Below are positions 13,116-29,532 of a stretch of DNA of 34,962 nucleotides, piece by piece (positions within the stretch are counted from its first letter, which is position 1; the number at the start of each line of letters is the position of its first letter). This DNA comes from Desulfomicrobium sp. Its GTDB lineage: Bacteria; Desulfobacterota; Desulfovibrionia; Desulfovibrionales; Desulfomicrobiaceae. Both the position numbers and the translations under genes were made by a program. The notes beneath the pieces are model-generated. The model had not been told where the DNA came from. It worked only from the letters and a program-made list of their open reading frames with translations, and did no database searches. The stretch is taken from positions 1 to 34,962 of the forward strand of contig JANJWV010000236.1 in assembly GCA_024709365.1 (NCBI GenBank). Direction: 5' to 3'.

Positions 13116-13975
13116 GGCGCATCAGCCTCCACGGCGGCCACAGCGGCCAGTTCTGCGACCACGCCAGAGACACGCTGGCGGAAATCGTCGCGGCCTACCA
13201 CGCCGCGGGGTTTGAATGCGTGGGGCTAACGGAGCACATGCCGCCGCTGAGCGATGCGTGGCTCTATCCCGACGAGGTTGAGCTGGGCAGGACGGCGGTG
13301 TGGATGCAGGAGCGTTTCGGGCGATATGTGGCCGAGGCCAGGAGACTGGAGCGGGAGTACGCTGGGCGCATGCGGATTTTGGTGGGCATGGAGAGCGAGT
13401 GGTACCCGGGGTGCGGTGAGTGGGTTGCGGAACTGCGTGAGCGGTTCGCGCTGGATTATGTGGTGGGCTCGGTCCACCACGTGGGTGGTGGATGTTTTGA
13501 CTTTTCGAAAACGGACTATGCGCGTATTGTGCAGTTATCAGGCGGATTGCTACCGTTTTATGCGGACTATTTTGACGCTCAGTATGAGATGATGCAGTCA
13601 CTCAGGCCGGAGGTGGTAGGTCATTTCGACCTTGTCCGGCTTTATGACGCGAACTACGTGGACACGTTGCTGGAACATGAAATTCGGTGTCGGATAGCTC
13701 GCAATCTGGAGTGGGTGCTGGAGTCCGGCGTGATTTTGGATGTCAACGCCAGGGCGATCTTGAAGGGGCAATCCGAACCGTACATGTGTTGGCTTATTTT
13801 GGAGAAAGCCGTGAGACTGGGAGTCCGGTTCGCATACGGGGATGACGCCCATGGAGCGTCGGAGGTGGGTTTCGGATATGAAAAGATCGGGTCGTTACTT
13901 GCGGAAGCAGGCGCGTCGCCCATCAAATCCTGCGAAGTTCTGTTGCGGCCGGTATCTTCCACGCGGCCCACATGA
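13112..13975 (+). CDS. PHP-family histidinol-phosphatase-like protein
   Basis: 287-residue PHP-domain phosphoesterase. Metal-binding segments appear in family order: LHGGHSGQFCDHA (residues 5-17), GLTEHMPPLSD, GMESEWYPG, VVGSVHHVGG, GHFDLVRLYD and YGDDAHGASEVG near the C-terminus. The HxGHSxFCxHA start and the order match HisK-type histidinol-phosphate phosphatases, but with no his genes nearby the substrate stays open. ATG 13112 overlaps the preceding stop. The gene is compositionally split: the first 350 nt are about as GC-rich as the flank, while the 3' half is clearly more AT-rich and marks the edge of the AT-rich region. Its 3' end overlaps the convergent membrane-protein gene by 53 nt. 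Confidence 0.88.
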   Translation: MRRISLHGGHSGQFCDHARDTLAEIVAAYHAAGFECVGLTEHMPPLSDAWLYPDEVELGRTAVWMQERFGRYVAEARRLEREYAGRMRILVGMESEWYPGCGEWVAELRERFALDYVVGSVHHVGGGCFDFSKTDYARIVQLSGGLLPFYADYFDAQYEMMQSLRPEVVGHFDLVRLYDANYVDTLLEHEIRCRIARNLEWVLESGVILDVNARAILKGQSEPYMCWLILEKAVRLGVRFAYGDDAHGASEVGFGYEKIGSLLAEAGASPIKSCEVLLRPVSSTRPT

Positions 13976-14384: not shown

Positions 14385-14442
14385 GTGTGGGCTCCAAAGT
14401 TTGAAGCCGGTTAAGAGAGCTTGGATTGAAAGTCAAATAGGT

Positions 14443-14472
14443 CCTCCCCCGTCGACGTTGTGTCGGGGAGGG
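14443..14472. repeat. Inverted repeat CCTCCCCCG / CGGGGAGG
   Basis: CCTCCCC(C)G at 14443-14451 pairs with CGGGGAGG at 14464-14471 around about 12 nt. No T-tract follows on either strand, so it is not a typical intrinsic terminator. It lies 58 bp upstream of the start of the minus-strand membrane-protein gene and may act on that transcript or as a protein-binding site. Confidence 0.4.
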
Positions 14473-14872
14473 AGCTGTTGGCTGTTGGCATGACCATTGA
14501 AGGCTATCGATTTTGGTGAGGAAGAAGTACGCGATAATGGAGTTCATGACGATGCGCCAAATATTGTCCGTAATTCATATAACTGTCGCTACTTCTTTGA
14601 CAGCAGCGCGGCAGGAGGGTAAGAGAAAAAAATAAGTCTCCCAATCTGGACGGTTCGGCTATTGTTTCAGACTGCGGAATCCGCTCCAAGAGCAGATGAA
14701 AACGGCGCTTGGGTATCGTCTTTGCAGAGTATGGCAAAATGAGATTTCCGGAGAACAAGCCTCGCGGGTCGTTTTTGGGGAGAATAAAAAATCAATGATG
14801 CCGAAATAATATGAAAGTCCATGAATTGTTTGTGCTGTGTGTAATTTTTGTTGCGCAAAAATTTGCCTCACT

Positions 14873-14901
14873 GTGACAAATTTTGCCTCGCTATGTATGC
14901 A
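14873..14901 (+). promoter_or_regulatory. Weak putative promoter of pilus operon A
   Basis: GTGACA (14873-14878) and TATGCA (14896-14901) are 17 bp apart and about 80 nt before the first pilin start. The match is modest. The region also contains the repeated TTTGCCTC element, which could be an activator site. Low confidence. Confidence 0.25.
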
Positions 14902-14950
14902 AAATGATGGTTTCCCTCAGGTGCAACGTATCTGATAAGTTCAAATTTAA

Positions 14951-14969
14951 TGACCGCCCGGAGCGGTCA
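14951..14969 (+). repeat. Perfect 7-bp hairpin in the operon A leader
   Basis: TGACCGC (14951-14957) pairs exactly with GCGGTCA (14963-14969) around CCGGA. The AAGGTG ribosome binding site of the first pilin starts at the last base of the stem, so in the mRNA the fold could limit ribosome access or stabilise the 5' end. It is unusually GC-rich for this AT-rich stretch. Confidence 0.5.
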
Positions 14970-14980
14970 AGGTGTTGAAA

Positions 14981-15466
14981 ATGAATTACCTTGTTTGTCC
15001 GAGTCCACGGAGCAACGTCGTGTTGAACCGGCTTTGCTGCAGGGAGCGCGGGGTAACCTTGGTCGAATTGCTGGTAGTGCTTGGTATTATCGGCATCCTC
15101 GGGGGGCTGAGCGGTATATTTTTGTTCAAATACCTACCTGAGTACCATCTGCGATCTGCTGCCAGCACTCTTTCACAGGATTTGCGTCAGACTCAAGTTA
15201 ATGCGATAAAGCGGCTTCAAACTTGGTCTGTATCCATGGACAGCGCGACGAATGCATATAGTATCATCGATGCTTCTGGAAATGCCTCCAAAACTGTCAA
15301 TCTCTCCTCATATGGGGGAGAGGTCCGTTTTGCGGCCGTTGGGGGGAGTCCTATCCAATTTGATGCGGAGGGTTTCACGACTGCAGGGAATGCGACAATA
15401 AGAAACAGTCGTGGATCTCAGATTACCATTCTGATTTTGAGGACAGGAGCTGTTCGTGTTCAATAG
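14981..15466 (+). CDS. FimT/GspH-like type IV minor pilin (operon A)
   Basis: 161-residue prepilin. The type III signal ends in RERG with cleavage predicted after G24, leaving VTLVELLVVLGIIGILGG with E29 at mature position +5, as needed for pilus assembly. The globular part, with a late beta-rich segment, resembles the GspH/FimT family of minor pilins. ATG 14981 is chosen because AAGGTG lies 6 nt upstream; GTG 14972 and TTG 14975 are possible but less well placed. First gene of a six-gene AT-rich operon whose members overlap or abut. The FimT assignment comes from size, position and the typical fimT-pilW-pilV-pilX-pilY1 order. Confidence 0.87.
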   Translation: MNYLVCPSPRSNVVLNRLCCRERGVTLVELLVVLGIIGILGGLSGIFLFKYLPEYHLRSAASTLSQDLRQTQVNAIKRLQTWSVSMDSATNAYSIIDASGNASKTVNLSSYGGEVRFAAVGGSPIQFDAEGFTTAGNATIRNSRGSQITILILRTGAVRVQ

Positions 15467-16316
15467 CACAACATGTCGGGAATCTGCCCGCTATTCTGGA
15501 TTTTCGCTGGTGGAACTGCTGGTCGTCATTGTTATGGCCGGTGTTTTGGCGACGGCCGGGTATAGTCTATTCCGAGAGCAGTCACGGGTTAATCAGTCTC
15601 AGCGAAATCTTCTTGAAATGCAGGGTAACGGTCGAGCGGCTTTGAATTTTCTGACCCAAAGCCTTTCGCATGCTGGATTTGGCTGCAGCGAGACAAATGC
15701 GTCGTTTATTCTTTTTTCAAATAACGCTTCTTCGCAGGGTCCTGATGTTGTTACTGTGCTGTATGGTTCAGACCACGTTGCAACAACAACAAATAACAGT
15801 ACTGATTCGAATATTGTCCCCATATCGCTTGTTTCTGGAAAGACCGTTAATGTTTCGAATGAGGTAAGTTTTTATCCGTCAATTCGGCCAAATAAGGCGT
15901 ACCGTGTAACGACTTCTGGAACAAGCATTACCCTTAATTCGGAAGTCGAATATGTTCCAGGCGGTGCAAAAGTGTTCAGAGTGTTTCCCGTGGAGTATCG
16001 ACAGGCTGGGAATGTGTTGCAGCGCACTGATTCCGTGGGGCCAGCCATTGTTGCCTATGAGGTGGTTAATTTTCAAATGGCATACTCGACGGTCAATCCA
16101 CCTGTGTGGCGCGAAGATTCTGGGGCCATCAATAACCCCAGGGCGGTATGGCTTTATCTCATTTTAAGGACGCGTGAGCCTGTTGCGGGCGTGAGGCATG
16201 GCCAGCAATTTGTATTGCCATGGAATAATGCAACTAGTTTTGCGGTCGCAAATGCCGAGGATGGATTGTATTATCAGGAATTTCAAGCACAAGTGTGGAT
16301 ACGCAATGCGAACTAA
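15456..16316 (+). CDS. PilW-like type IV minor pilin (operon A)
   Basis: 286-residue prepilin with processing site after G15 and the hydrophobic helix FSLVELLVVIVMAGVLATAG (E20 is +5). The size and the segment after the helix (QSRVNQSQRNLLEMQGNGRA, a conserved feature of PilW proteins) support a PilW-type minor pilin, part of the tip-priming complex. The start is GTG 15456, 6 nt after AGGAGC, overlapping the upstream gene by 11 nt. The C-terminal domain contains WREDSGAINNPRAVWLYLIL, also typical of the family. Codon use is AT-rich like the rest of operon A. Confidence 0.88.
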   Translation: MFNSTTCRESARYSGFSLVELLVVIVMAGVLATAGYSLFREQSRVNQSQRNLLEMQGNGRAALNFLTQSLSHAGFGCSETNASFILFSNNASSQGPDVVTVLYGSDHVATTTNNSTDSNIVPISLVSGKTVNVSNEVSFYPSIRPNKAYRVTTSGTSITLNSEVEYVPGGAKVFRVFPVEYRQAGNVLQRTDSVGPAIVAYEVVNFQMAYSTVNPPVWREDSGAINNPRAVWLYLILRTREPVAGVRHGQQFVLPWNNATSFAVANAEDGLYYQEFQAQVWIRNAN

Positions 16317-16692
16317 AGATAAACCGCAGAACGGGTTTACAATCGTTGAGTTGCTGGTTTCTGCGATGATAATCTCCATTGGCATTTTGGCATGGGCCAA
16401 AGCGCAGACGGGGGGTATCAAGGGGAGCGCTACGAGTAACGGAATTACGACAGCCTCGGAGTTGGCCATGTCGCGAACTGAAGAGTTGGCTCTCGAATGT
16501 CAGAGATCTGCTCTTCCAGGTTCAGGAAATGACGCAGTGACCGCGCGTGGCTTCCTGTTCACCCGTAGTTGGACCGTGACGCAGCATGTTGCCATGCCGG
16601 GGGTGCAGGTCAGGAGGATAGAGGTTACCGTTAATTGGAACCAGTACGGGCCGAGGGAAGTTCGGTATCAACGTGTTACAAGCGGTGGTTGA
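16306..16692 (+). CDS. PilV-like type IV minor pilin (operon A)
   Basis: 128-residue prepilin. Cleavage is expected after G10, giving FTIVELLVSAMIISIGILAW with E15 at +5; the mature part is short, as in PilV. ATG 16306 overlaps the preceding stop and has no strong ribosome binding site, so coupling is likely. The longer upstream frame is rejected because it would bury the prepilin peptidase site behind about 45 residues that lie inside pilW. Followed after 2 nt by the PilX-like gene. Confidence 0.82.
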   Translation: MRTKDKPQNGFTIVELLVSAMIISIGILAWAKAQTGGIKGSATSNGITTASELAMSRTEELALECQRSALPGSGNDAVTARGFLFTRSWTVTQHVAMPGVQVRRIEVTVNWNQYGPREVRYQRVTSGG

Positions 16693-16694
16693 TT

Positions 16695-17222
16695 ATGGCG
16701 AAACAAGAAGGAAGTACGCTAGTTATCGTAATTCTGGTAATGGCGCTATTGGCGGCCGCTATCATAGGATTGATGAGAGATGTTGAGATTGATCTCTTTG
16801 TAGGGCGCAATACTCGCGTTGTGAAGCAGTCTTTTTTATGGGGTGATAGCGGTTTGGAAATTACTGAAGAGTTGCTCGGGAATTCAGCGCGAAAGCGTGG
16901 TTCTGCAGACAACTCTACGAATATTCCGAATACTCAATATCGCCTTGAGTTGGTCAATCCCCCACTCTATGTTCCGAATGCAACATCAGTTAATGTTCTG
17001 GATCAAGGAAATGTCGTTTCGAATGTCGATGTAAACTACCTGGGTCGCTTTGTCTCTGATGGAAATTCTATTAAATTTGAAAGCGCTTCAGAGGGTGTCG
17101 GTTTCGGAGCGGGTTCGGGTTCTGTTGTCGGTTTGGTGTATAGTTTCGACTCTGTAGGTTTTTCAGACAATAATCAGGCAATAAAACGTGCAGCAGAGAT
17201 TTTCACATATGTTGTGAACTAG
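16695..17222 (+). CDS. PilX-like minor pilin component (operon A)
   Basis: 175-residue protein with a short leader MAKQEG followed by the helix STLVIVILVMALLAAAIIGL. Glutamate is absent at position +5 (isoleucine there), as is common in the PilX/GspK group, whose tip position may not need it. The segment NTRVVKQSFLWGDSGLEIT corresponds to the conserved region after the helix in PilX proteins (compare FFLADSGANAG in operon B). ATG 16695 lies 2 nt after the preceding stop. In known systems PilX works with PilY1 in aggregation and tip-complex assembly; this is inferred from position and family. Confidence 0.82.
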   Translation: MAKQEGSTLVIVILVMALLAAAIIGLMRDVEIDLFVGRNTRVVKQSFLWGDSGLEITEELLGNSARKRGSADNSTNIPNTQYRLELVNPPLYVPNATSVNVLDQGNVVSNVDVNYLGRFVSDGNSIKFESASEGVGFGAGSGSVVGLVYSFDSVGFSDNNQAIKRAAEIFTYVVN

Positions 17223-17234
17223 AGAGGGTGTTGT

Positions 17235-17573
17235 ATGCGCAAAAAAATGATTGCGATCATAATTTTTGTTTTTTTCTGTGGCTTGGCCCATGCTGAAGGG
17301 CAAGCGTTGGACAACGCGACGGACGAAATTTCTGCAACGGATAGTATATGTCCTGGAAATTGGGTGCTTTCAAATCTCGCGGGGTGGTCGGTGCGTAATG
17401 AAGACGGCGTGATTTTACCCTTGTCTGTGGATACGGCCGTTTTCGGGTGCGACGGTAAATTGATTGCTCTTAATGCCGATTTGTCGGGTATGAAGGTCGG
17501 CGTAGAATGCGCCCCTTCCGGCGTAGAGAAAGGACTTCCAAATGTATTGACTGTAAATATATGGTGCCGCTGA
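17235..17573 (+). CDS. Small secreted four-cysteine protein of pilus operon A
   Basis: 112-residue protein with a clear Sec signal peptide (MRKKMIAIIIFVFFCGLAHA, cleavage near residue 20). The mature domain of about 92 residues has four cysteines (in SICPGNW, VFGCDG, VECAPS and at the C-terminal IWCR), which could form two disulfides in the periplasm. I do not recognise it. It sits between the PilX- and PilY1-like genes, 12 nt after the former, with GAGAGGG ahead of ATG 17235; operon B has no counterpart. A periplasmic chaperone or tip accessory for the adjacent PilY1 is a guess. Confidence 0.8.
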   Translation: MRKKMIAIIIFVFFCGLAHAEGQALDNATDEISATDSICPGNWVLSNLAGWSVRNEDGVILPLSVDTAVFGCDGKLIALNADLSGMKVGVECAPSGVEKGLPNVLTVNIWCR

Positions 17574-17601
17574 CATCTCTCTCGCCTCGAAGGAGGAGAT
17601 T

Positions 17602-20600
17602 ATGAAACGTTTTGTCGTGATCGCGCTATCAGTAATTGTATTCTTCTTTGGTGCCAGTTCGGCTTGGAGCAAACAGGCCGCTCAGGTAGAGGCATTTAAT
17701 TGTAATAACTATGCTCTTGAGCCCCCTTCATTGGCTGATGCGGTGGCGCCCTCAACCACCCTGATAGTCGATTCTTCCGGTAGTATGAACGAGCACGCCT
17801 ATCAGGAGACAGAAATTCGGTGGCGGTATACCTCGGAAAATTCAGATCGTCGAGGGTATACTGGATTCAATCCGCAAAATGAATATTATGGTTACTTCGA
17901 CCCGTATCTATATTATTCTTATAATAGCACGGGGAGTAGGTTCTATCCGGATTCGTCAGGAGAGTGGAGTGGAAACTTTATGAATTGGGTTTCCATGCAT
18001 AGAACTGATGTCGTTCGGAAGGTTTTGACGGGTGGCCCGTATGATAATGCAACAAGTACTTATACTGTCTCAAGAACTGATGCAAGTGATCAGCGTGGCA
18101 AGTATCATGTATACGATGCGTCTGCTGCTGTTGTCGATCTGAATAATGCAACAAAGTATGTTGTGCCTTCTGAATATAGAAAGAAGGTTGGTTTTGTTCA
18201 GGTTGATAATAGCGATAATATGTATATATATTTTGCTAGTAGTGTTGATGCTGCTGTCGATCCGGCGCGATGGAATATGGGTACGACACAGCAAGGTGTG
18301 TGTGTTCTTCGTGTTGTCTCGGAAAAGCAATACGGTGTTTTGGATAAATTTGGGTATAGGATGAGGCTTGCGCTGTTCAGGTATGATAATGATGGTACGT
18401 TGCATAATGGCGGCAAAGTTCTTAACTATATGACATCTGATCCATCAGAAATCAATAATATTGTTAACAACATTAATTTGTTGAATGTTAATAGCTGGAC
18501 TCCTCTTGCGGAGACATTTCATACAGTTACTGGCTATGTGCAACAGGTGTCTGCGAAAAATAACGAAGTCGGCCCTAGATATGAGGATACGTCCTATGTC
18601 GCCAACAAGGGCAAGGTCACTGATCCCTTCTATTTTAGTGGGAACGGGACAATTTATTGCACTCAGCAGAATGTTATTCTCATAACAGATGGCGAGTCGA
18701 CCAAGGATACTGCCGTCCCTGATAAATTTAAGACTGCTGAATCTGATGTGGCTGGCAACGACGCCTACTATGGTTCCCAATCTGACGATGCGAGCGGTTA
18801 TCTCGATAATATCGCCTATTGGGCGCACACCAATGATCTGCGTGCGGATCTGCCCGGAAATCAGACGATAAACTTGTACACAGTTTTTGCTTTCGGTTCC
18901 GGCAGTCAACTGCTCAAAGATGCCGCTAAATGGGGTGGGTTCGTCGACAAAAATGATGACGGCCTTCCTGATCCGGATGAATACGACGCAAATATAGATG
19001 GGGTGCCTGACAATTATTTCGAGGCGGCTTCAGGAAGCGCTCTTGAGAATGCTTTGGTTGTTGCGTTCAGCAGTATTCTCAATCGAGTTTCGTCAGGTTC
19101 CGCTGCCTCGGTCGTGAATACTTCGAGGGAAGGAGTGGGCTTTTTATTGCAGGCCGTGTACTGGCCTGAGCTTCGTGATATCAATGGGAAAACAACATCC
19201 TGGTCCGGCGATGTCTATGCGTATTGGTTGGATGAAGAAGGTCGCCTGTATGAAGACGACGGGACGACGCCAAACTTTTTTGATGCCTCGGACAGTAAGG
19301 TGACCGTCTGGTATGATACCAGTACCGTGCCGAATAGGGCGAGGGCGTGTTCGGGGGGTACGGTCGTCAACGGGGCTTGTGTCAACGGTACGGTCAAGGA
19401 AATTAATTCCGTCAAGCATCTCTGGGCTGTTTCCAGATGGTTGAATAAAACGAGCCTCGACGCGGCCACTCAGCGAACGAGTTACGCCTCATCGTCGGGC
19501 GACGACGCAGGGCGTCGGTATATTATGACGTGGAATGACAATGGCGATGGCGCGGTGAACGGGGGTGAATATGTTCCATTCACGTCATCCGATTTTACTT
19601 CAGGGGTTGTAAACGGAACTGTTGTCGACTGGATTCGGGGCGTAGATTCCGCGCAGTTGCGGTCAAGGCAGATTCTTAGCGATACGAATTCTGATGGGAC
19701 GGCGGATACGACAGTAACTTGGCGACTCGGGGATGTTATCAATTCTTCACCGACAGTAGTGGCGCAACCTTCAGAGAATTTTGACCTCATATGGGGCGAC
19801 GCCAGTTATAAAGATTTTTATTTGAAATATTTCAACCGGCGAACAATGATTTATTTCGGCGGCAATGATGGCATGCTCCACGCGATTAACGGTGGATTTT
19901 ATAACGAGGATGACAAAGGATATTGCCGTAGTCTCAACGAAAATGGCTCATGTGGCAACTCGGGCGGTTTCGAAATTGGTACAGAAATGTGGGCGTATGT
20001 ACCCTTCAATGCGCATCCGAACCTTTCGTGTCTCGCCAGCCCGCAATACCGGCATCAGTATTATGTCGATTTGAAGCCGCGTGTTTTTGAGGTGCAAATC
20101 TTCGACCCTGATACTGACCATCCGAATGGCTGGGGAACGATCCTGGTGACCGGGTTCAATTTCGGTGGCGATGGTCAGCAGGATTTGATGCGGGATTCAC
20201 GTTATTTCGGGTCGTCGTTCTCTGTATTTGATATCACCAACCCCGAGAAGGCGCCTGGATTTTTGGGTGAATTCACCTATGATGGCCAGTACACATTTGG
20301 CTATGCTTTGAATCAGCCAACTGTAGTTGCGGTGAAGGACGGGACCGGTAAGAAACATTGGTATATGCTCATGGGTACCGGTCCGACATCTTCGGCGGGA
20401 TCCAGCACGCAGAAGGCGCAGGTTGTTGTTGTCCCATTGGGAGAGTTGGTTGATAAGAGCACCAATACGGCTAAGTCGTCCTTCCCGCTCCGTCTGGGCG
20501 CCAGCCTCGCCAAGCCGAGCATGACGAAAATCGGCGCTCTGCCCCTTGCGCTGTCCACAAGCGCCATGGGGACGGGGTTTTCCGCTGTTGACTACGATTT

Positions 20601-21465
20601 CGATTTTTTTGTTGACATGATGTATTATGGCGTTGTGGACACGCCTCAGAATGGTCCATTGACCGGTGGAGTGCACAGACTGAAGATCGAGGACGAGCCG
20701 GATCCAAGCAAGTGGGAGCGTAAGGAAATGACAGATACCGGCGGTCCCATGACTGGTGGTATTAACGTCGGCTTCAAGAGCAAAAACGTGTGGGTCTATT
20801 TTGGTACGGGCAAGTTTTGGGATGTGACCGACAAGACGGACCTGCGTACCCAATGGATGTATGGCATAATGGAACCTAAGAAAACGGACGGTAGTGCCTA
20901 CAATTTTAGCCAGATTCCCGTTGGTCAGCTGTTGGATGTTACGGATTTTTATGTGCGACCGGATGGCGTGGGTACTCTCTACTGCAAGAGTAATAATTCA
21001 ACAGGTTGTTTGCCTTCTGGTGTTGTTACAGTCGATGATCTTGAGAAGTATATTCGTGACACTCCAAATGTTGATGGCTGGCGGAGAGCTCTTACTTCCT
21101 CTGGAGAGCGAGTCATTGTTGAACCTTCGCTTTTCGGCGGAGTGGCGAACTTTGTTACGTCTGTTCCGTCAAATGATTACTGTGTTGCTGGCGGTTCCAG
21201 CAAATTATATGCGCTTTATTATTTAACTGGAACGGCCTGGAAAGAGAACGTATTTGGCGGAGTTTCCGGAGATTATGTGCCATTCGTTGTTGATCTTGGG
21301 CAAGGAATAGCCTCTAGGCCAAGTTTGCATTTAGGTAAAGAGCAAGGTGTTATGCTTTATTTTCAAAATAACCTTGGAGAAATTATAGTATTACATCAGC
21401 CAGTTCTACCGACTGGCCCCGTTTCGTCCGGAAAGGGCGGTTGGCACACTTTAGAAGCAGATTAA
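17602..21465 (+). CDS. PilY1-like type IV pilus tip adhesin (operon A)
   Basis: 1287-residue exported protein. The signal peptide (1-23, ending SSAWS) is followed by a von Willebrand A domain with MIDAS D57-S-S-G-S; it carries a tyrosine-rich insertion (YYGYFDPYLYYSYN) and the WSGNFMNW motif shared with the operon B protein. A Ca-binding-like segment rich in Asp (DKNDDGLPDPDEYD, from about residue 449) precedes the C-terminal PilY1 beta-propeller, which contains YFGGNDGMLHAINGGFY and a canonical calcium loop D997-x-D999-x-D1001-x3-D1005. In Pseudomonas and Neisseria such proteins cap or regulate the pilus and act as adhesins, with calcium at this loop controlling retraction; that role is inferred here. 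AAGGAGGAGATT precedes the ATG. The gene is markedly AT-richer than its flank. Confidence 0.93.
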   Translation: MKRFVVIALSVIVFFFGASSAWSKQAAQVEAFNCNNYALEPPSLADAVAPSTTLIVDSSGSMNEHAYQETEIRWRYTSENSDRRGYTGFNPQNEYYGYFDPYLYYSYNSTGSRFYPDSSGEWSGNFMNWVSMHRTDVVRKVLTGGPYDNATSTYTVSRTDASDQRGKYHVYDASAAVVDLNNATKYVVPSEYRKKVGFVQVDNSDNMYIYFASSVDAAVDPARWNMGTTQQGVCVLRVVSEKQYGVLDKFGYRMRLALFRYDNDGTLHNGGKVLNYMTSDPSEINNIVNNINLLNVNSWTPLAETFHTVTGYVQQVSAKNNEVGPRYEDTSYVANKGKVTDPFYFSGNGTIYCTQQNVILITDGESTKDTAVPDKFKTAESDVAGNDAYYGSQSDDASGYLDNIAYWAHTNDLRADLPGNQTINLYTVFAFGSGSQLLKDAAKWGGFVDKNDDGLPDPDEYDANIDGVPDNYFEAASGSALENALVVAFSSILNRVSSGSAASVVNTSREGVGFLLQAVYWPELRDINGKTTSWSGDVYAYWLDEEGRLYEDDGTTPNFFDASDSKVTVWYDTSTVPNRARACSGGTVVNGACVNGTVKEINSVKHLWAVSRWLNKTSLDAATQRTSYASSSGDDAGRRYIMTWNDNGDGAVNGGEYVPFTSSDFTSGVVNGTVVDWIRGVDSAQLRSRQILSDTNSDGTADTTVTWRLGDVINSSPTVVAQPSENFDLIWGDASYKDFYLKYFNRRTMIYFGGNDGMLHAINGGFYNEDDKGYCRSLNENGSCGNSGGFEIGTEMWAYVPFNAHPNLSCLASPQYRHQYYVDLKPRVFEVQIFDPDTDHPNGWGTILVTGFNFGGDGQQDLMRDSRYFGSSFSVFDITNPEKAPGFLGEFTYDGQYTFGYALNQPTVVAVKDGTGKKHWYMLMGTGPTSSAGSSTQKAQVVVVPLGELVDKSTNTAKSSFPLRLGASLAKPSMTKIGALPLALSTSAMGTGFSAVDYDFDFFVDMMYYGVVDTPQNGPLTGGVHRLKIEDEPDPSKWERKEMTDTGGPMTGGINVGFKSKNVWVYFGTGKFWDVTDKTDLRTQWMYGIMEPKKTDGSAYNFSQIPVGQLLDVTDFYVRPDGVGTLYCKSNNSTGCLPSGVVTVDDLEKYIRDTPNVDGWRRALTSSGERVIVEPSLFGGVANFVTSVPSNDYCVAGGSSKLYALYYLTGTAWKENVFGGVSGDYVPFVVDLGQGIASRPSLHLGKEQGVMLYFQNNLGEIIVLHQPVLPTGPVSSGKGGWHTLEAD

Positions 21466-21469
21466 AATT

Positions 21470-21533
21470 GAGCGTGTAAGAGTTGTGGGCCGTTTGTAAT
21501 CAGGGAGGCCATATCCTGATGCGGCCCACGCTC
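21470..21533. repeat. Nested inverted repeats between the two pilY1 genes
   Basis: GTGGGCCG (21485-21492) pairs with CGGCCCAC (21522-21529), and inside it ATCAGG (21499-21504) pairs with CCTGAT (21515-21520). A competing outer pair, GAGCGTG (21470-21476) with CACGCTC (21527-21533), shares bases with the first. It fills most of the 104-bp gap between the convergent operons. There is no T-run, so it could be a bidirectional Rho-assisted terminator or a barrier to antisense read-through. Confidence 0.6.
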
Positions 21534-21569
21534 ATGCCGCGGTCATTCTGAACAAGATTCTCGATTCAC

Positions 21570-24500
21570 TCAGTTAGTATTTTTGCGCCAGAACAGGCAA
21601 CCGGACTTGAAAGGCAGGGGCGATTCGATATCCATCTTCTTGATCTCTCCATAGCTTGATTGGGTGAAGGCCGTGAGCATGCGTTCTTCACCGATGTGCA
21701 AGGTAGGGTTTGCGGCCGGACCCCGGCCGAGTTCTCTGGAAGCAGGGAATTCCCCGCTTGGTTGTCGCAAGGAGGGCCAGAGGTACGGGGTGCCTGTTTT
21801 GTAGTAGAGCGTCCAGAGTCGGCTTGTTCCGTCCAGTGCGCAGATTTCCTGCTCAGGCGCAATGCTGGTGAATACTACCGCGCCGCCCAATACCGCCGCC
21901 TGGCTCAGCACCCTTTCCCCTGCATTCGAGAATGTGTGCTTCCAGCCCGAGGCCTGGTCCAGGTTGCCGGTAAGCCAGGCCCAGTCCTTGGTGATATTTG
22001 AGCCTTCGTCCATCTGCATTATGCCGACGCAATCAGGCGCATATTTTCCCTCCCAGCACGATCCGCGTGTCACGGCAATCTTGTTGCTGTCGAAGAGCTG
22101 CTGGCTCGACACGGCGTCCCAGTTCATGGTCCCGTCAGTTGTTGGTTCCTTGACGCCGTAAAAGCCCATTGGCGTGGTTTGGGTCATATCGTCGCGGTTG
22201 AATAACCTGCCGGTACCGAAATAAATCCAGAGTCTGTCCTCTTCGTCGACGCTAACCGCGGGGGCGGCACACATGGGCTCACCCACATCGACAAGGATGG
22301 AGGTTTTCCATTCTTCAGGCGCGCCATTGCCGGTCCGTAGCCGGTAAACCTTACCCGTGGCGCTGGTTGAACTCCCGGCCACAGTTCCGAAATAGACGAG
22401 GTCTGTGCTGAATTTTCCAGACCCGTTCCTTGAGCCGACATCAAGATCGACGCACACGGGATCGGAGATGAACGACCCTTCCTCCGTGAAGGCGAAAGCT
22501 TCTCGTTGCGACGTGGTCAAGCCGGTGCTGTCCACGGTCTTGACAATTTTTTCCGTGAGCAGGGCGCTGAGGTCCAGCACGAAAAGCTTGCCGGGTTGGT
22601 CGCTGGTCTCGTGCATCAGCTTGCTTCGGCTGGCGTGCCCGCTTGCGTCGGCAGGCCCGGAGCCGAAGACCAAGTACCACTTGTCAGAGGCGGGGCTGCC
22701 GGTACCCGTGCCGCTCATGGGCATCACTGCCGGGGTGCACGTCGTGAAGCCCTGGCCGGGCACTGATATTTCGGCCAGCACGTTGGGTGGGGATTCGGGA
22801 TCGGTGACGTCCATGATTATGTATGCCGAGGTCACGGTGCGGTCTATGCCGACGTTCAGCCCGTTGCCGTCGTTTTTGTCGATGTCCGTCTCCATGGCCG
22901 CGCCGCCCAGGCGCATCCCTGCGACAAGGATGGTTCCCCAGCCGCCTGGGTATGTGTCCTCGTCGATGGATGTGATCCCGTCAGACATGAAGAAGATTCG
23001 AGCGTCGAAGACTTGCGGCGTCAAATCCATGTAGGCGACATGCAGCTTCTCGCCATAATCCGGATGCATGAGCCATTTGAGATGGGGAAGCAGGTTGTAG
23101 GGAACGTAGGCCCAGAGCTCCATGCCGAGGGGAAATTGCGTCAACGTGCCGTGCGCCACATCGAAAGCGCGGGTTCCGGGGTTCCAGAATCCGCCGTTGA
23201 ACGCATGCAGCATACCGTCATTGGCTCCGACGTACACGACCTGACGGCGGTCCTGGTATTGTTTCAGGAACGCTTCGTAGGTCGCATCATTATATATGAG
23301 GTGGAAGTTTTCGGAGGGCTGGCCCACCACGGTGGGCGCAGAGAAGGCAATGTCGCCCAGCCGCCAGGGGGTTTCTCCGTACATGCGGCTTCGGGTGGCA
23401 TCCACGATGCCCTCGATCGTGGCATTGCCGACCTCCGCTCCGCGGATGAAGTCAACCTGCCTCTTGGCCAGGGTGCTCTGGAAATTGGAGAACGCAGACG
23501 GATTGTCTTCCTGGAGATCGTTGATCGCGTTCTGCACGGGGTCGGCAAGATCGAGTCCCAACGTGCCGGAGCCTGATTCGAACAGGGTCAGAAAGTTGTA
23601 ATAGAAATCCGGAGAGTTGAGGGTATTGTCAGCAGGATTGGCCGGAAGCGCAAAATGTTGGATTTCTCCGTTGGTGCTGGAGGCGACCATGTCCTGGTTT
23701 TTGTCCACAAAGGTCAAGATGTAGCGGTTCGGATCGGCAACCGAGTAAATTGAACGCTGCGAGACCACCTGTTGTTCCGTCAGGCTGTTGAGCCAGGCGA
23801 CTGTTGACCACAGGAAACGGATGTCGGCGATGCTGTCCAGCGTCGTTGCGTTTTTCTCCTCTTCTTCGATGACTCCGTTCCCGTCGGAGTCAACGTGGAC
23901 GTATATCTCTCCCTTTGCGAATTCGACGACTCTGTCGGCGGTCAGGTCCAGCCGTTGGTTGGAGTTGGTGTCCTCGCGAAGGTTGCCCTTGGCGTCCAGC
24001 ATGTAGGCATGGACCTGGCCCGACCAGGGCGGGGCGATGTGTCCTGTACGGCTCGGTGGGAACAAGAGCGCCTGGTATGCGGCCACTTCGCCGGTTCGTG
24101 CCAGCGTTGTGACGGTCATTGCCGTGGCGGAGGCGACTTTGGGCGCGTCGAGCAGGAGGACGCGGGTGACGGCTTGTTCCAGCCTTCGCCCAGCTTGGGC
24201 GGTAAAATAATTGTCGGGCAGGCCGTCGCCGTCGGCGTCGAACTCTTCCTGCATGTCAGGCAGGTTGTTGCCATTCATGTCTCTGAATTTTCCGTGCCGG
24301 GCCGCGTCCAGGAGAAGGTTGCTCGGACCGTCGGTTACGGAAACGGCGTAGAAATCTGCGTTCTGCGTTCCCTCCATTCCGTCCTCGGGCCTCAAGTCCG
24401 TGGTTTGGCCAAAATATGCCATATCGATCAGATAGGTGCTTCCACTTGGGTGCAGGGAATACTCTGTATTCGGCCGTTTTATTGTGGTCAGATTTTTGAG

Positions 24501-25430
24501 TACTCCGGGAACGCCTTGGTCACCGGAACTTTCCCCGGCACTGACCAAAATGACGCTCTGCCTTGAGCAGGGTACGGTTTGGCCCCTGGACGGGAAATAG
24601 AAGGGATCGTCTGACGTGCCGCTTTGGCCAAGATACTCATGCACTGTATGCAAGGCTGCAGCGAGCGGGGCCGCCCCCCGGGCCCGCACGGAATTGACGG
24701 TGCTTACGATGCGATCGAGCTCGGCCGCGTCGTCGCTCATGGGGTGCCGGTTTTGTCCGCCTTCTTCGAGAGTGAAGAGGGCGATGCGGGCCTTTTTACC
24801 AACGGCCTGGAGCAGCCCGCTTTCGGCTTCGCCTTTGACACGCAGCACGTATTTTCGCTCGAAGTCCGCCATGGAGACGCTCATTGCGTTCTCGCCATCC
24901 ACAGGCCCGAAGGTGACACGCCCGCGCAGGGGCGTCATGTGAGCAATTCGTCCTCCGTGGTCGCGCCGCGGCGTCGAGTCATCGTACTCGAATCCGTCCG
25001 TTCTCTGGCCATGCTCCTCCATTTCGTAACAGCCGCTCTGGGCCACGAAGTTTCCGCCGCTGAGCAGTTGGCGCGCCACGTCGATACGCAGCATCGCCGC
25101 CCAGTTCAGGAAGTTGCCGCTCCATTGCCCCGTGGCGTTGTCAGGGGAGAAGTGGGCATAATCGGTATCCGCAATGTAGACGTAATACGAATCGGGATCG
25201 AAATACCCGTCGTATCGTCGCGTAGCGTTGAACGGGCCGGAGTATGCCCGCTGGAGCATGCTCGCGGACGAATCCAGAACAAAAGTGACGGAAGGTTTTT
25301 CCTCCATGGTCACAAAGGGCGGCAGCCAATGGAAATCTGCGCCTCGGTAAGCGGCGGCACTGGAAGCGAAGAACACGAGTACGCACGCGACCGCCAAGGT
25401 CACAGTCAGGGGGCCGTTCGTCCTCTTCAT
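21570..25430 (-). CDS. PilY1-like type IV pilus tip adhesin (operon B)
   Basis: 1286-residue exported protein, paralogous to the operon A PilY1. Signal peptide (about 1-28, hydrophobic VTLAVACVLVFFASSAAA), then a VWA domain with MIDAS D53-S-S-A-S, the shared YDGYFDPDSYYVY and WSGNFLNW segments, the Asp-rich DADGDGLPDNYF region (ending near residue 407) and the propeller with YVGANDGMLHAFNGGFW. The propeller calcium loop is altered: D995-x-D997 is followed by a longer glycine/serine stretch before D1010. Its C-terminus ends in SGCLFWRKNTN. ATG 25430 overlaps the PilX-like stop (ATGA) with GGAGG 11 nt upstream; a longer frame to 25649 lies inside that gene and is rejected. GC content is closer to the chromosomal flank than operon A. 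Confidence 0.93.
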   Translation of the reverse strand: MKRTNGPLTVTLAVACVLVFFASSAAAYRGADFHWLPPFVTMEEKPSVTFVLDSSASMLQRAYSGPFNATRRYDGYFDPDSYYVYIADTDYAHFSPDNATGQWSGNFLNWAAMLRIDVARQLLSGGNFVAQSGCYEMEEHGQRTDGFEYDDSTPRRDHGGRIAHMTPLRGRVTFGPVDGENAMSVSMADFERKYVLRVKGEAESGLLQAVGKKARIALFTLEEGGQNRHPMSDDAAELDRIVSTVNSVRARGAAPLAAALHTVHEYLGQSGTSDDPFYFPSRGQTVPCSRQSVILVSAGESSGDQGVPGVLKNLTTIKRPNTEYSLHPSGSTYLIDMAYFGQTTDLRPEDGMEGTQNADFYAVSVTDGPSNLLLDAARHGKFRDMNGNNLPDMQEEFDADGDGLPDNYFTAQAGRRLEQAVTRVLLLDAPKVASATAMTVTTLARTGEVAAYQALLFPPSRTGHIAPPWSGQVHAYMLDAKGNLREDTNSNQRLDLTADRVVEFAKGEIYVHVDSDGNGVIEEEEKNATTLDSIADIRFLWSTVAWLNSLTEQQVVSQRSIYSVADPNRYILTFVDKNQDMVASSTNGEIQHFALPANPADNTLNSPDFYYNFLTLFESGSGTLGLDLADPVQNAINDLQEDNPSAFSNFQSTLAKRQVDFIRGAEVGNATIEGIVDATRSRMYGETPWRLGDIAFSAPTVVGQPSENFHLIYNDATYEAFLKQYQDRRQVVYVGANDGMLHAFNGGFWNPGTRAFDVAHGTLTQFPLGMELWAYVPYNLLPHLKWLMHPDYGEKLHVAYMDLTPQVFDARIFFMSDGITSIDEDTYPGGWGTILVAGMRLGGAAMETDIDKNDGNGLNVGIDRTVTSAYIIMDVTDPESPPNVLAEISVPGQGFTTCTPAVMPMSGTGTGSPASDKWYLVFGSGPADASGHASRSKLMHETSDQPGKLFVLDLSALLTEKIVKTVDSTGLTTSQREAFAFTEEGSFISDPVCVDLDVGSRNGSGKFSTDLVYFGTVAGSSTSATGKVYRLRTGNGAPEEWKTSILVDVGEPMCAAPAVSVDEEDRLWIYFGTGRLFNRDDMTQTTPMGFYGVKEPTTDGTMNWDAVSSQQLFDSNKIAVTRGSCWEGKYAPDCVGIMQMDEGSNITKDWAWLTGNLDQASGWKHTFSNAGERVLSQAAVLGGAVVFTSIAPEQEICALDGTSRLWTLYYKTGTPYLWPSLRQPSGEFPASRELGRGPAANPTLHIGEERMLTAFTQSSYGEIKKMDIESPLPFKSGCLFWRKNTN

Positions 25431-25984
25431 TGGTTGATATGCCTCCAGCCCAGATCCACTTCCGCAACGCTGTTGCGGGCGCCCTTCCTGTGCGAACGGA
25501 TGAGGTAGCTGCTGAAGGTTCCACCCGAGGCTGCCCCCCGTCCTGCGCTTCCATATCCCGTCCCGCACTGTATGGCGCTGCCCGGAACCAGCCCTGTTTC
25601 GATGAAACCGGCCCGGACATAGGTGCCTTCGGACTCGTGGCTGTGCCATTTGACTGGAAAGTCATCGGGATCGAAGCCGTTTGTGTTTTCCCAAGCGGAG
25701 GCGTTGGTGGCGGAGGTGCCGTCGTTATAGAACGTGGAATTGGCCGAGGCGATGGCTGTTTCCAGGTATTCGTGGCCTGCGTTTGCGCCCGAGTCCGCCA
25801 GGAAGAACGCGTTTTTTGCGTCGTTGCCGTTGGCCGCCATGAGGATGTTCAGGAGCGCCGTGTCGCTTGCGGCCAGACCGATCACCCCGAGCAGGGCGAG
25901 GATGATGATGGCCACGACAAAGACCATGCCGGACTGATTCAGGGAAGATTCCGGGCTGGGTTTAGAATTTTGGTGAGAGAACAT
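25427..25984 (-). CDS. PilX-like minor pilin component (operon B)
   Basis: 185-residue prepilin-like protein with leader MFSHQNSKPSPESSLNQSG, predicted processing after G19 and helix MVFVVAIIILALLGVIGLA. As in operon A, no glutamate occupies +5 (valine there). NAFFLADSGANAGHEYLETA is the conserved PilX segment. ATG 25984 overlaps the end of the PilV-like gene by 23 nt and lacks a strong ribosome binding site. The TGA stop overlaps the pilY1 start. It probably forms the tip complex with the other operon B pilins and PilY1. Confidence 0.84.
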   Translation of the reverse strand: MFSHQNSKPSPESSLNQSGMVFVVAIIILALLGVIGLAASDTALLNILMAANGNDAKNAFFLADSGANAGHEYLETAIASANSTFYNDGTSATNASAWENTNGFDPDDFPVKWHSHESEGTYVRAGFIETGLVPGSAIQCGTGYGSAGRGAASGGTFSSYLIRSHRKGARNSVAEVDLGWRHINQ

Positions 25985-26432
25985 AGATGTACCGTGCGCT
26001 GGCTTGGAAGCCGCCGTTGTTCCATGAGAGGGTGCAGGTCATTTCCTTGCATCGCTCCATGGGTGTGTTGTCGGCCAGGGTGCAGTTCAGGGAAAATCGT
26101 ACGCCATCGATGACGGTTGTTGTGTTCGAGTCAGCCAGCGCCGCGAATGCCTGCGCGGAATACTGGGCAGGAATGGACTTTTCCAGGAATCTCTCGACCA
26201 GATGGCTTCCCCGGGAGATGTGGGCGGCGCGGGTCTGCTGCGTGGAGGCGTGTGCAATGAGCGAGGCGACGCCCATCAGTCCGATGCTCAGAATGGCCGC
26301 AGCAACGAGGACTTCGATAAGCGTGAAGCCCCGACAGGTCTGCTCTTTGCGTGTCCGGCGCGAACGGGCATTTAAAGGAGGCCTTGCCTTTAGGGCATGG
26401 TTGCGGAGCAAAGGGCGGGAGGAGCTTTCCAT
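25962..26432 (-). CDS. PilV-like type IV minor pilin (operon B)
   Basis: 156-residue prepilin with an unusually long, basic leader (about 35 residues, RSRRTRKEQTCRG) before FTLIEVLVAAAILSIGLMGV; E40 is +5 after cleavage behind G35. ATG 26432 is chosen because it lies 8 nt after the FimT-like stop; longer starts would overlap that gene deeply. No other in-frame ATG is closer to the processing site, so a shorter product would need a non-ATG start. The mature domain has cysteine pairs (SLNCTLAD, RCKEMTC). Part of the five-gene minus-strand operon. Confidence 0.83.
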   Translation of the reverse strand: MESSSRPLLRNHALKARPPLNARSRRTRKEQTCRGFTLIEVLVAAAILSIGLMGVASLIAHASTQQTRAAHISRGSHLVERFLEKSIPAQYSAQAFAALADSNTTTVIDGVRFSLNCTLADNTPMERCKEMTCTLSWNNGGFQASARYIYVLSPKF

Positions 26433-26440
26433 CGGGTGCT

Positions 26441-26866
26441 CTATTCCGAAACCACACTGCCCGAAGGCCGTACCGTTACGGTGCGGGACAGGCCGGTGTT
26501 GTTGCGTATGGTTATGGCTCCGGCAACGGTGGCCCTGCCGAGGCCGTTGAAATGGGTGGTGAAGGACTTGGTGAGGGCTGCGCTGTTTCTCAAGCCGCTG
26601 AGGTCGAAGCGCCGCAACAGGGTGTTGTCGTCGCGTACCCTGATTTCGCATGTGTTGCGCAGCATGTCGCACTGGAATCTGATGTGTTCGTTTCGTTTGA
26701 TGGCTTCAAACCTGGCGTTCCGGCACATGCTGACAATGGTTCTGGTCGCACGGTCCATTTCGGCCCCCGGCAGGGCGGAGATGAGGGAAGTTCCACAGAG
26801 GGCCGCAAGTATGGCCACGACTCCCAGGACCATGAGAGTCTCCATGAGGGTGAACCCCTTCGTCAT
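26441..26866 (-). CDS. FimT/GspH-like type IV minor pilin (operon B)
   Basis: 141-residue prepilin with the minimal leader MTKG, then FTLMETLMVLGVVAILAALCG (E9 at +5). The segment ATRTIVSMCRNARFEAIKRN and the beta-rich C-terminal GspH-like domain match FimT proteins. ATG 26866 overlaps the preceding TGA (ATGA); an ATG 30 nt upstream is possible but would lengthen the leader beyond need. In operon B this gene is second, behind the PilW-like gene, whereas in operon A it is first. Confidence 0.86.
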   Translation of the reverse strand: MTKGFTLMETLMVLGVVAILAALCGTSLISALPGAEMDRATRTIVSMCRNARFEAIKRNEHIRFQCDMLRNTCEIRVRDDNTLLRRFDLSGLRNSAALTKSFTTHFNGLGRATVAGAITIRNNTGLSRTVTVRPSGSVVSE

Positions 26867-27552
26867 GGCGTTTTGTCCATGTCCGTATTGCGGCACCAGA
26901 CCATGGCGGACATGGTGCTGTTGCCGATGCCCATCCCCGCGTGGGACGGTGAGGGGATCGCGGTGATTCGTACGAGCACGCCGCGGATACTTTGCGTATC
27001 CGGCTGCGAGTCTTCGATGATGTCGCCGCGCTCATTGAAATAGGTGAAACTCAGATCGCCGATGTTGGTGTTGACCGGCTGCCAGCGAACGGTGCCGGTA
27101 TCGTATTTGCGCAGCACATTGTCGGGCTCCGGCTTGGCGGCCCCGTCATTGGCGACGTTGAGCCTGAAGCCCGAGTGCTCACGCAGACTGCCGCTATCGC
27201 TTTCATTGACGACCCCGTCGGCGTTCATGTCCTGGGTGCAATAGACCGATGACCTCGTCGTGGTCCTTCCGTAATCCGGCGCGCCTGTTCCGGGCCTGTG
27301 GGAAAATCCGAAGCCCGGGGCTGCATGTGCCGAAAATCCGCACATCCGCAATTCGTCGGAAATGAGCGAAATGGCGGACAGCAGTTCCTGCTGCATGAGG
27401 GCGGCTTGGCTCTGCCTGATGGCCATGCGCTGGTGGGTCTGGAAAAGGGTGAAGATCGCTCCGAGGATCAGGCCGGAAATGGCCATGGCGACAAGCAGTT
27501 CAATGAGGGTCATGCCCGATTGGGCGCGTAGCTTCTGAAATCCGTAGGGCAT
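26863..27552 (-). CDS. PilW-like type IV minor pilin (operon B)
   Basis: 229-residue prepilin; processing is predicted after G13, leaving MTLIELLVAMAISGLILGAI with E18 at +5. The region RQSQAALMQQELLSAISLI and the later DLSFTYFNERGD fit PilW-type pilins, though it is shorter than the operon A version (286). ATG 27552 is preferred; a TTG 36 nt upstream would also keep the frame, and neither has a strong ribosome binding site. First gene of operon B; its promoter should lie between here and the terminator at 27679-27718, but I cannot point to convincing hexamers. Confidence 0.84.
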   Translation of the reverse strand: MPYGFQKLRAQSGMTLIELLVAMAISGLILGAIFTLFQTHQRMAIRQSQAALMQQELLSAISLISDELRMCGFSAHAAPGFGFSHRPGTGAPDYGRTTTRSSVYCTQDMNADGVVNESDSGSLREHSGFRLNVANDGAAKPEPDNVLRKYDTGTVRWQPVNTNIGDLSFTYFNERGDIIEDSQPDTQSIRGVLVRITAIPSPSHAGMGIGNSTMSAMVWCRNTDMDKTP

Positions 27553-27718: not shown

Positions 27719-27739
27719 AGGAATTGATCCATGCGATCG

Positions 27740-27928
27740 CTACTTGTCGACGATCGCGCAGTCGGGGTTGGGGCACCACCATTCGTCCTTGTCGCCGGTG
27801 ATGGCCTTGACCTCGCCCTCTTCGAGCATCGCGGCCGTCTGGCCGTTGAGTTCCTTGCATTTACGGCCGGGAAGCTTCTTCTTCGTGTCGCCTGATATGG
27901 ACAGTGGCTTTTCCTGTTCGTTCGTCAT
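27740..27928 (-). CDS. Small cysteine-containing protein of unknown function
   Basis: 62-residue cytoplasmic protein, charged and without signal peptide. A lysine-rich middle (TKKKLPGRKCKEL) is followed by an acidic segment and ends in DEWWCPNPDCAIVDK; the C-x4-C pair plus the upstream single Cys could bind a metal. I do not recognise the family. The evidence for a real gene is strong: AAGGAGGT 5 nt before the ATG, a near-consensus sigma70 promoter, and a perfect intrinsic terminator. It is monocistronic and probably highly expressed. Confidence 0.85.
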   Translation of the reverse strand: MTNEQEKPLSISGDTKKKLPGRKCKELNGQTAAMLEEGEVKAITGDKDEWWCPNPDCAIVDK

Positions 27929-28007: not shown

Positions 28008-28191
28008 AGGGGCTCGCTCCGTATGGATGCGGATTAAGTGTTGAGTGTCTTGGGTATGAGACCTTGTTTGAGTCTTCATGGATTTTCATATATCCCCACT
28101 TCATGAGCGGAAAGCGACTACATATTTCTATGCCCTGCAGCCCCTGCGCACGGACTCCCCACGCGCTGAACCGTCCAGTTTTGGGGGGCGT

Positions 28192-29532
28192 GTGAATCGC
28201 GAGCGGACCATCCTGGTCGTCGATGACGACGAGGGCGTTCGTCAGATCCTGCAGGATCTGCTGGCTTCGGCCGGGTACAGGACGTTCATTGCGGCCGACG
28301 GCGAGGAGGCCCTGCTCAAGCTGGGAAACGGGGAGGTGGACCTCGTCGTCTCTGACGCCAGAATGCCCGGCATGAGCGGCCGCGAACTGCTCTGGGAGTG
28401 CATGCGGCGCTGGCCCGGGCTGCCGGTCGTGCTGCTGACAGGGTACGGCACCGTGCCCGACGCCGTGGAGGCCATCAAGGCCGGGGCCGTGGATTACCTG
28501 CTCAAGCCCTTTGACGGCCGGGAGCTGCTCGGCAAGATCGCGTCCATCCTGGCGGCCAGGGATACCCGCGCCTGGACCGGGGGGAGGGGGCTGCTGGCGG
28601 AGGAACTGTGGGGCGGGAAGAGCCCGGCCATGCAGCGCCTGTACAAGCTCATCGAGCGCGTCGCGCCGACGGAGGCCACGATCCTCCTGCTTGGCGAATC
28701 CGGCACGGGCAAGGAGAAGATCGCCGGGCTCCTGCACCGTCTGAGCCAGCGCGCGTACGGGCCGTTCGTCGTGGTGGACTGCGGTTCCACGCCGTCAACC
28801 CTGCTCGAAAGCGAGCTCTTCGGGCACGCCAAGGGCGCCTTCACCAATGCCTTCAAGGACAAGAAAGGACTTGTGGCCGAGGCCCACGGCGGAACCCTCT
28901 TCCTGGACGAGATCGGCAACATCTCCCCGGAGATGCAGCTTAGGCTTCTGCGCTTCCTGCAGGAGCGCCGCATCCGCCGCGTGGGCGACGTGGCCGAGAC
29001 GCCCGTCAACTGCCGGGTCATCGCCGCCACCAACGCGGATCTGGCCGAACTGGTCCGGCGCGGGGAATTCCGCGAAGACCTCTACTACCGCCTGAAGGTC
29101 ATCACCATCCAGGTGCCTCCGTTGCGCGAGCGTAAGCCCGACATTCCCATCCTGGCCGAACGTTTCCTGCAGCTGTTCGCCGAGGACGGGCGCGTCCGCA
29201 AGCTCGACCCCGAGGTGGGCGAGGCCATGCTCGACTATGCCTGGCCCGGCAATGTCCGCGAACTTCGGAACATGCTGGAGGCGGCCGTCATCCTGTCCTC
29301 GGACGGCGTCATCCGCATGGAGGACATGCAGTTCGAGGAGACCGACCTGGACGTCCCGCTGCCCGGCAACGTGCTCTCGCTTGAGGACAGCGAACGTCAG
29401 GTCATCGTCAGCGCCCTGGAAAAAAGCGGCTGGGTGGTCAAGGACGCCGCCGACCTGCTCGGCATCAGCAGGCGCACCATGCACTACAAGATCAAGAAAT
29501 TCCGCATCGAGACGGGCAAAAAAGCGAGTTAG
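28192..29532 (+). CDS. Sigma54-dependent NtrC-family response regulator
   Basis: 446-residue regulator: receiver domain (1-120) with D11/D12, phospho-acceptor D55, T83 and K105; AAA+ domain with Walker A GESGTGKE (168-175), Walker B LFLDE (236-240) and the ELFGHAKGAFTNA loop; Fis-type helix-turn-helix at the end (DLLGISRRTMHYKIKKF). The sigma54-contact motif reads GAFTNA (215-220) rather than GAFTGA; variants at this residue can alter or weaken sigma54 activation. GTG 28192, preceded by a G-run, gives the family-typical start; ATG 28078 is the first ATG of the frame but has no ribosome binding site and would add 38 residues of no similarity. No partner kinase is adjacent. Pilus operon control is possible but not shown by position alone. 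Confidence 0.92.
   Translation: MNRERTILVVDDDEGVRQILQDLLASAGYRTFIAADGEEALLKLGNGEVDLVVSDARMPGMSGRELLWECMRRWPGLPVVLLTGYGTVPDAVEAIKAGAVDYLLKPFDGRELLGKIASILAARDTRAWTGGRGLLAEELWGGKSPAMQRLYKLIERVAPTEATILLLGESGTGKEKIAGLLHRLSQRAYGPFVVVDCGSTPSTLLESELFGHAKGAFTNAFKDKKGLVAEAHGGTLFLDEIGNISPEMQLRLLRFLQERRIRRVGDVAETPVNCRVIAATNADLAELVRRGEFREDLYYRLKVITIQVPPLRERKPDIPILAERFLQLFAEDGRVRKLDPEVGEAMLDYAWPGNVRELRNMLEAAVILSSDGVIRMEDMQFEETDLDVPLPGNVLSLEDSERQVIVSALEKSGWVVKDAADLLGISRRTMHYKIKKFRIETGKKAS

Follow-up and report, generated by a model that had tools for sequence, protein, structure and literature searches.

More than one set of minor-pilin and PilY1 genes has been described in several bacteria. In Myxococcus xanthus, which has a single PilA and a single machine, either of two minor-pilin/PilY1 clusters suffices for pili (PMC7541494). 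Clusters 1-3 of this species are differentially regulated, by HsfBA (NtrC-like regulator) (PMC9109919), the diversity of its minor-pilin/PilY1 clusters has been documented (PMC13190605), and PilY1.3 has been attributed to horizontal transfer (PMC7541494, PMC9109919, PMC13190605). Xylella fastidiosa carries duplicate pilEVWX/fimT/pilY1 sets whose mutant phenotypes are different and often opposite (PMC9956873). Between close strains of Xanthomonas translucens, PilY1 identity is 28-31% compared with over 94% for other type IV pilus (T4P) genes (PMC5217246), and the minor pilins and PilY1 of Pseudomonas aeruginosa PA14 and PAO1 show allelic divergence (PMC5979040). Neither dual tip sets nor divergence among tip alleles is thus new (PMC7541494, PMC9956873, PMC5217246).

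The locus studied here, in the Desulfomicrobium genome G000 and its relatives, resembles that of M. xanthus in its several complete FimU/PilV/PilW/PilX/PilY1 sets. They occur beside one PilQ in G000 and, in the genomes G029 and G044, which are closed, beside one PilA. The M. xanthus sets are described as separate clusters, however, whereas here one site houses both a resident set and an exchangeable slot, the slot differs in content between sister species and the two G000 sets lie tail to tail. The X. fastidiosa sets differ from ours in occupying two different genome regions, and that species has several PilA paralogues. As in X. translucens and P. aeruginosa, tip genes of close strains are far more divergent than the remaining pilus machinery, but in those species one set varies between strains, as described, whereas here a second set stays alongside. 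A literature search, mostly outside subscription journals, found nothing closer to an exchangeable PilY1 locus with a resident set and a refillable slot, and such a slot next to a resident set looks like a new variation. The gene sets themselves are ordinary and their arrangement is unusual, with good evidence that they are exchanged rapidly; their function as pilus tips is presumptive.

The window (the whole 34,962-nucleotide stretch that was analysed) is contig C77 of the 3.65-Mb draft genome G000, which comprises 239 contigs. Operon A (14981-21465, plus strand) runs in the order FimT, PilW, PilV, PilX, Cys protein and PilY1, and operon B (27552-21570, minus strand) in the order PilW, FimT, PilV, PilX and PilY1 (Table 1). 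Each holds FimT/FimU, PilV, PilW, PilX and PilY1 genes in one direction, and every pilin of both (FimT, PilV, PilW, PilX) has a type III leader. Glu5 is absent from the leader sequences of both PilX proteins, as expected of a PilX subunit; A-PilX owes its assignment to its position and to weak similarity. No stop interrupts any of the six A genes, all of them intact and with sound leaders. Open reading frames, domains and leaders thus bear out the preliminary description of two intact minor-pilin/PilY1 operons facing tail to tail, and the one-residue difference in length between two widely diverged PilY1 proteins was likewise recovered, at 34-36% identity. The gap with nested inverted repeats that had been noted between the operons holds a nested hairpin that is strong by its z values (-3.6 on the plus strand, -2.5 on the minus strand) and is probably a terminator common to both. 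G+C content is about 43-52% in operon A, about 57-61% in operon B and mostly about 65% in the remaining contig.

Table 1. Features of the minor-pilin/PilY1 locus and its surroundings (window coordinates; strand is given as a dot where not applicable)
Feature	Coordinates	Strand	Evidence or remark
Left identity break	13420..13500	.	inside PHP-domain gene 12932-13975
Region upstream of cassette A	14385..14980	+	without sigma54-like/sigma70-like promoter pair
A-FimT/FimU-type minor pilin	14981..15466	+	N_methyl 1e-6, GspH 1.1e-5; ORF from GTG 14972
A-PilW minor pilin	15456..16316	+	N_methyl 5.4e-6; 44-45% to PilW of G034/G044 A cassettes
A-PilV minor pilin	16306..16692	+	N_methyl 1.9e-6; TIGR02523 PilV 3.1e-8, below curated cut-off
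A-PilX (no Glu5)	16695..17222	+	NF037980 GspK 9e-5, below cut-off; 51% to G034 A-cassette PilX
Small secreted Cys protein	17235..17573	+	four invariant Cys in alignment with homologues
PilY1-A, putative tip adhesin, 1287 aa	17602..21465	+	N-terminal DSSGSM (VWA/MIDAS-like), Ca-loop-like motifs
Convergent gap, 104 bp, nested inverted repeats	21466..21569	.	between stop codons of PilY1-A and PilY1-B
PilY1-B, putative tip adhesin, 1286 aa	21570..25430	-	PF05567 9.7e-9; N-terminal DSSASM
B-PilX (no Glu5)	25427..25984	-	PF14341 4e-7
B-PilV minor pilin	25962..26432	-	N_methyl 1.3e-8; TIGR02523 3.9e-9, below curated cut-off
B-FimT minor pilin	26441..26896	-	GspH 1.4e-5
B-PilW minor pilin	26863..27552	-	N_methyl 1.9e-7
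Right identity break	27720..27760	.	break at about 27,740
NtrC-type response regulator	28078..29532	+	conserved, adjoins locus; GAFTNA instead of GAFTGA

PilY1-A gave no match to Pfam or NCBIfam models, and PF05567 was found in PilY1-B only. The two proteins align at 34-36% identity over two long stretches (34% over the C-terminal half), and a family profile built from both types matches the solved P. aeruginosa PilY1 structure 3hx6 at 3.8e-24, so the family shares by homology the C-terminal beta-propeller of that protein. PilY1-A is therefore identified as a PilY1 by its homology to PilY1-B together with the family profile. A D-x-S-x-S motif, the pattern expected of a VWA/MIDAS domain, lies near the N terminus of PilY1-A and most homologues read; judged by this motif, PilY1-A may contain such a domain.

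A PilY1 tree from a quick search, with SH-aLRT support only and with row G055_B (translated out of frame, with 30 stops and a long branch) used for no conclusion, separated an A clade and a B clade, each with support of 100. PilY1-A clustered with its A-type counterparts in G034, G044 and G029 and with PilY1 proteins that occur as a single copy in other families of the order; the neighbours of PilY1-B were other B proteins and B-like slot-2 proteins of the same family. The tree and the low identity rule out a recent duplication and uphold the earlier reading on this point; by these comparisons A and B are anciently distinct. Decay has left no trace in A or B, both of which are intact with complete subunit lists.

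Among relatives, the site is framed on one side by genes for aminopeptidase P, a PHP-domain protein and a 153-aa ORF, and on the other by those for the NtrC-type regulator, MsrA and others. Between these flanks lie a B set, with its genes arranged W-T-V-X-Y1, and another set arranged T-W-V-X-(Cys)-Y1. The position of the latter, slot 2, is filled by an A-type cassette in G034, G044 and G029 (and in G061, judged by FimT alone at a contig end) and by a B-like cassette in G024, G055 and G058; gene order tracks the slot, not the sequence clade. Slot-2 G+C is low throughout (about 0.40-0.53). G014 has a B-like slot-2 set and no B gene except PilW, so tip sets do get lost.

The content of slot 2 diverges far more than its surroundings. 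Genomes G029 and G044 are 96.3% identical in the flank, 96.8% in PilQ and 83.1% in B PilY1, with only 51.1% in slot-2 PilY1; the corresponding values are 96.3% (flank), 88.1% (B PilY1) and 44.7% (slot-2 PilY1) for G055 and G058, and 92.2% (flank), 94.4% (PilQ) and 34.6% (slot-2 PilY1) for G000 and G014. As far as sequence comparison can tell, slot-2 turnover is fast, the second position is an exchange slot into and out of which tip sets of different lineages are swapped, and set B is the more stable resident. Closely related species can thus carry very different pilus-tip sets, and near-identical genome pairs with different tips offer natural material on tip specificity and subunit compatibility. 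In G044 and G029 (loci L130 and L132), a second PilY1-like 3' end, reading ...KPGSLFRRKNTA and then a stop, lies between the intact B PilY1 and slot 2; it is probably the scar of an earlier, replaced cassette.

All seven two-set relatives (7/7) have the sets in tandem on one strand, and G000 alone has them inverted. The tail-to-tail layout is hence not the usual arrangement, an outcome that the preliminary description had not foreseen. Inversion of slot 2 is known from one genome, the 239-contig draft. Repeat-mediated misassembly was considered as its cause and rejected, although with less certainty in a draft: no suitable repeats were found, and the PHP-domain ORF is continuous across the left break.

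Both ends of the G000 locus show abrupt breaks in identity. At about 13,460, the nearest relatives fall from 90-98% on the left to about 55-80% on the right, and G+C falls; at about 27,740, identity to G014 drops from 92-98% on the right to 28-62% on the left, a side on which clade II relatives match at 48-82%. These clades come from flank trees built from genes near the locus, several rows of which were less than half filled: clade I holds G000, G079 and G014, and clade II holds G024, G034, G029, G044, G055 and G058. The operon trees are incongruent with this grouping and reject a clade II that excludes G000 (AU p = 1.4e-4 for A, 3.6e-8 for B), the tested groupings having been named from the flank tree and not picked after several tries. 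G000 and G024 are 69% identical in B, with flanks only 80% identical, whereas clade II pairs with 88-89% flanks are 66% identical in B.

Because the breaks to the nearest relatives are abrupt at both ends, the data suggest that about 14 kb (13.46-27.74 kb) with both sets entered G000 from a different lineage, through recombination within the flanks. The AU tests are compatible with either direction of transfer, and a donor of the G000 stretch is one we infer. G055 and G058 may also have received their B set from elsewhere. Carriage on a mobile element or phage was rejected: the flank genes are housekeeping genes, and there was no mobile-element gene among the families scanned.

In G000, N_methyl matches mark six prepilins within the window and another four on C82, a contig whose prepilins belong to a type II secretion system (T2SS) with its own pseudopilins and GspK. 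Three secretins are clear (T2SS GspD, type III secretion SctC and one PilQ) and a fourth match is weak; a PilT/PilU pair was found, which together with the T2SS explains the remaining filament genes, as were four GspE/PilB-type ATPases apart from that of the T2SS. One locus per genome exceeded the PilQ cut-off in all 6 genus genomes. The closed genomes G029 and G044 have exactly seven N_methyl matches, six at the locus and one PilA-like gene elsewhere, and so pair a single PilA and a single PilQ with two tip sets. The G000 draft yielded no PilA, most likely owing to an assembly gap, and the single-machine claim for G000 draws on its own PilQ and on the relatives. A single PilQ in each of these genomes, and a single PilA in two closed relatives, make it probable that one type IVa pilus machine uses both sets, as in M. 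xanthus. The SctC gene (C19:17089-17574) gives G000 a type III secretion secretin besides the T2SS and T4P.

That the two sets instead serve two different filaments, such as T4P and another pilus or the T2SS, could be argued from the T2SS and the four additional ATPases of G000. This appears improbable given that the T2SS is equipped with its own pseudopilins and GspK, and that two closed relatives hold both sets with one PilA-like pilin and one PilQ. The earlier proposal of alternative tip complexes fits in part: the sets are not recent duplicates, and one PilQ and one PilA (in the closed relatives) are available to them. That both sets form tips, and that these bind different targets, would be a plausible extension.

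The slot-2 upstream regions of the seven relatives share a GGCAYRSTTYCTGCT element with sigma54 spacing (GG-N10-GC), and TTGACA-N17-TATNNT-like hexamers come after it; together they make up a sigma54-like and sigma70-like promoter pair. The element occurs once per upstream region read, above both A-type and B-like cassettes; it was defined from the same seven sequences, so its recurrence reflects conservation, not function. Both elements are absent upstream of the slot-2 cassette in G000 (cassette A), G014 and G073. Cassette A may be silent in G000 or driven by another promoter. The neighbouring regulator reads GAFTNA in clade I and GSFTNA in clade II in place of GAFTGA, the sigma54-contacting motif, which makes a sigma54 role for it uncertain. 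For set B, and for cassette A in the window, control by sigma54 was rejected, as no upstream site stood clearly above shuffles with conservation to back it. A perfect-looking hairpin (TGACCGC..GCGGTCA, 14951-14969) lies immediately 5' of the A-FimT start and could affect its expression.

The absence of this promoter pair raises the alternative that set A landed in G000 only lately and is silent there, inverted, off the slot promoter and heading for loss, with only B making tips. Its strongly AT-rich composition (GC3 of 0.48 in cassette A versus 0.85-0.93 in flank genes) and the precedent of G014, where B is down to PilW, point the same way. Against it, the six A genes remain whole, uninterrupted by stops and with leaders in working order; G014 and G073 keep an intact slot-2 cassette despite lacking the promoter motif; and cassette A could have a promoter of its own. 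We regard a silent set A as unlikely. An invertible switch, with tip types turned on or off by the flipping of cassette A, would account for the inversion of this cassette relative to all tandem relatives. We consider it highly improbable: no long inverted repeats bracket A (the best arms are 24 nt at 79%, at unrelated positions), there is no recombinase gene in the window among the families scanned, and A has its own upstream region, so a flip would not obviously switch it.

We thus favour, with a probability of roughly 0.72, two alternative tip sets serving one machine at an exchange locus, with about 14 kb imported into G000 and the slot-2 cassette inverted. Each complex would comprise four minor pilins and PilY1, probably with a tip or priming role on one type IVa machine. 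Low-GC cassettes would refill slot 2, drawn from no fewer than two PilY1 lineages of ancient separation, and homologous recombination through the conserved neighbouring genes is the probable route. In G000, the import would have brought in both sets, and the slot-2 cassette would have come to lie inverted, giving the tail-to-tail layout. For the further proposal of a dedicated tip exchange locus, in which a resident set accompanies a constant slot promoter beneath which distant-lineage cassettes are swapped, we would give even odds. If it is true, tip specificity would be replaceable in one recombination step with the resident set kept; surface-polysaccharide loci are swapped in a similar manner. 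Keeping one set and exchanging another at one site would explain how a single machine could acquire new adhesion targets without risking piliation.

The small Cys protein of operon A is a companion of A-type and some B-like cassettes. It has a predicted beta fold, its mature part was modelled confidently, and the model had no significant match among PDB folds. The usual flanks are missing from the tip-cassette contig of G073, which starts with an apparent 5S rRNA end (L176:1-200), so this cassette may lie at another genomic site. In both G014 (L144:14457-15131) and G073 (L176:982-1692), a lone B-type PilW stands 5' of a complete T-W-V-X-Y1 cassette; deletion of the second PilW from such a layout would give the operon B order and may be its origin.
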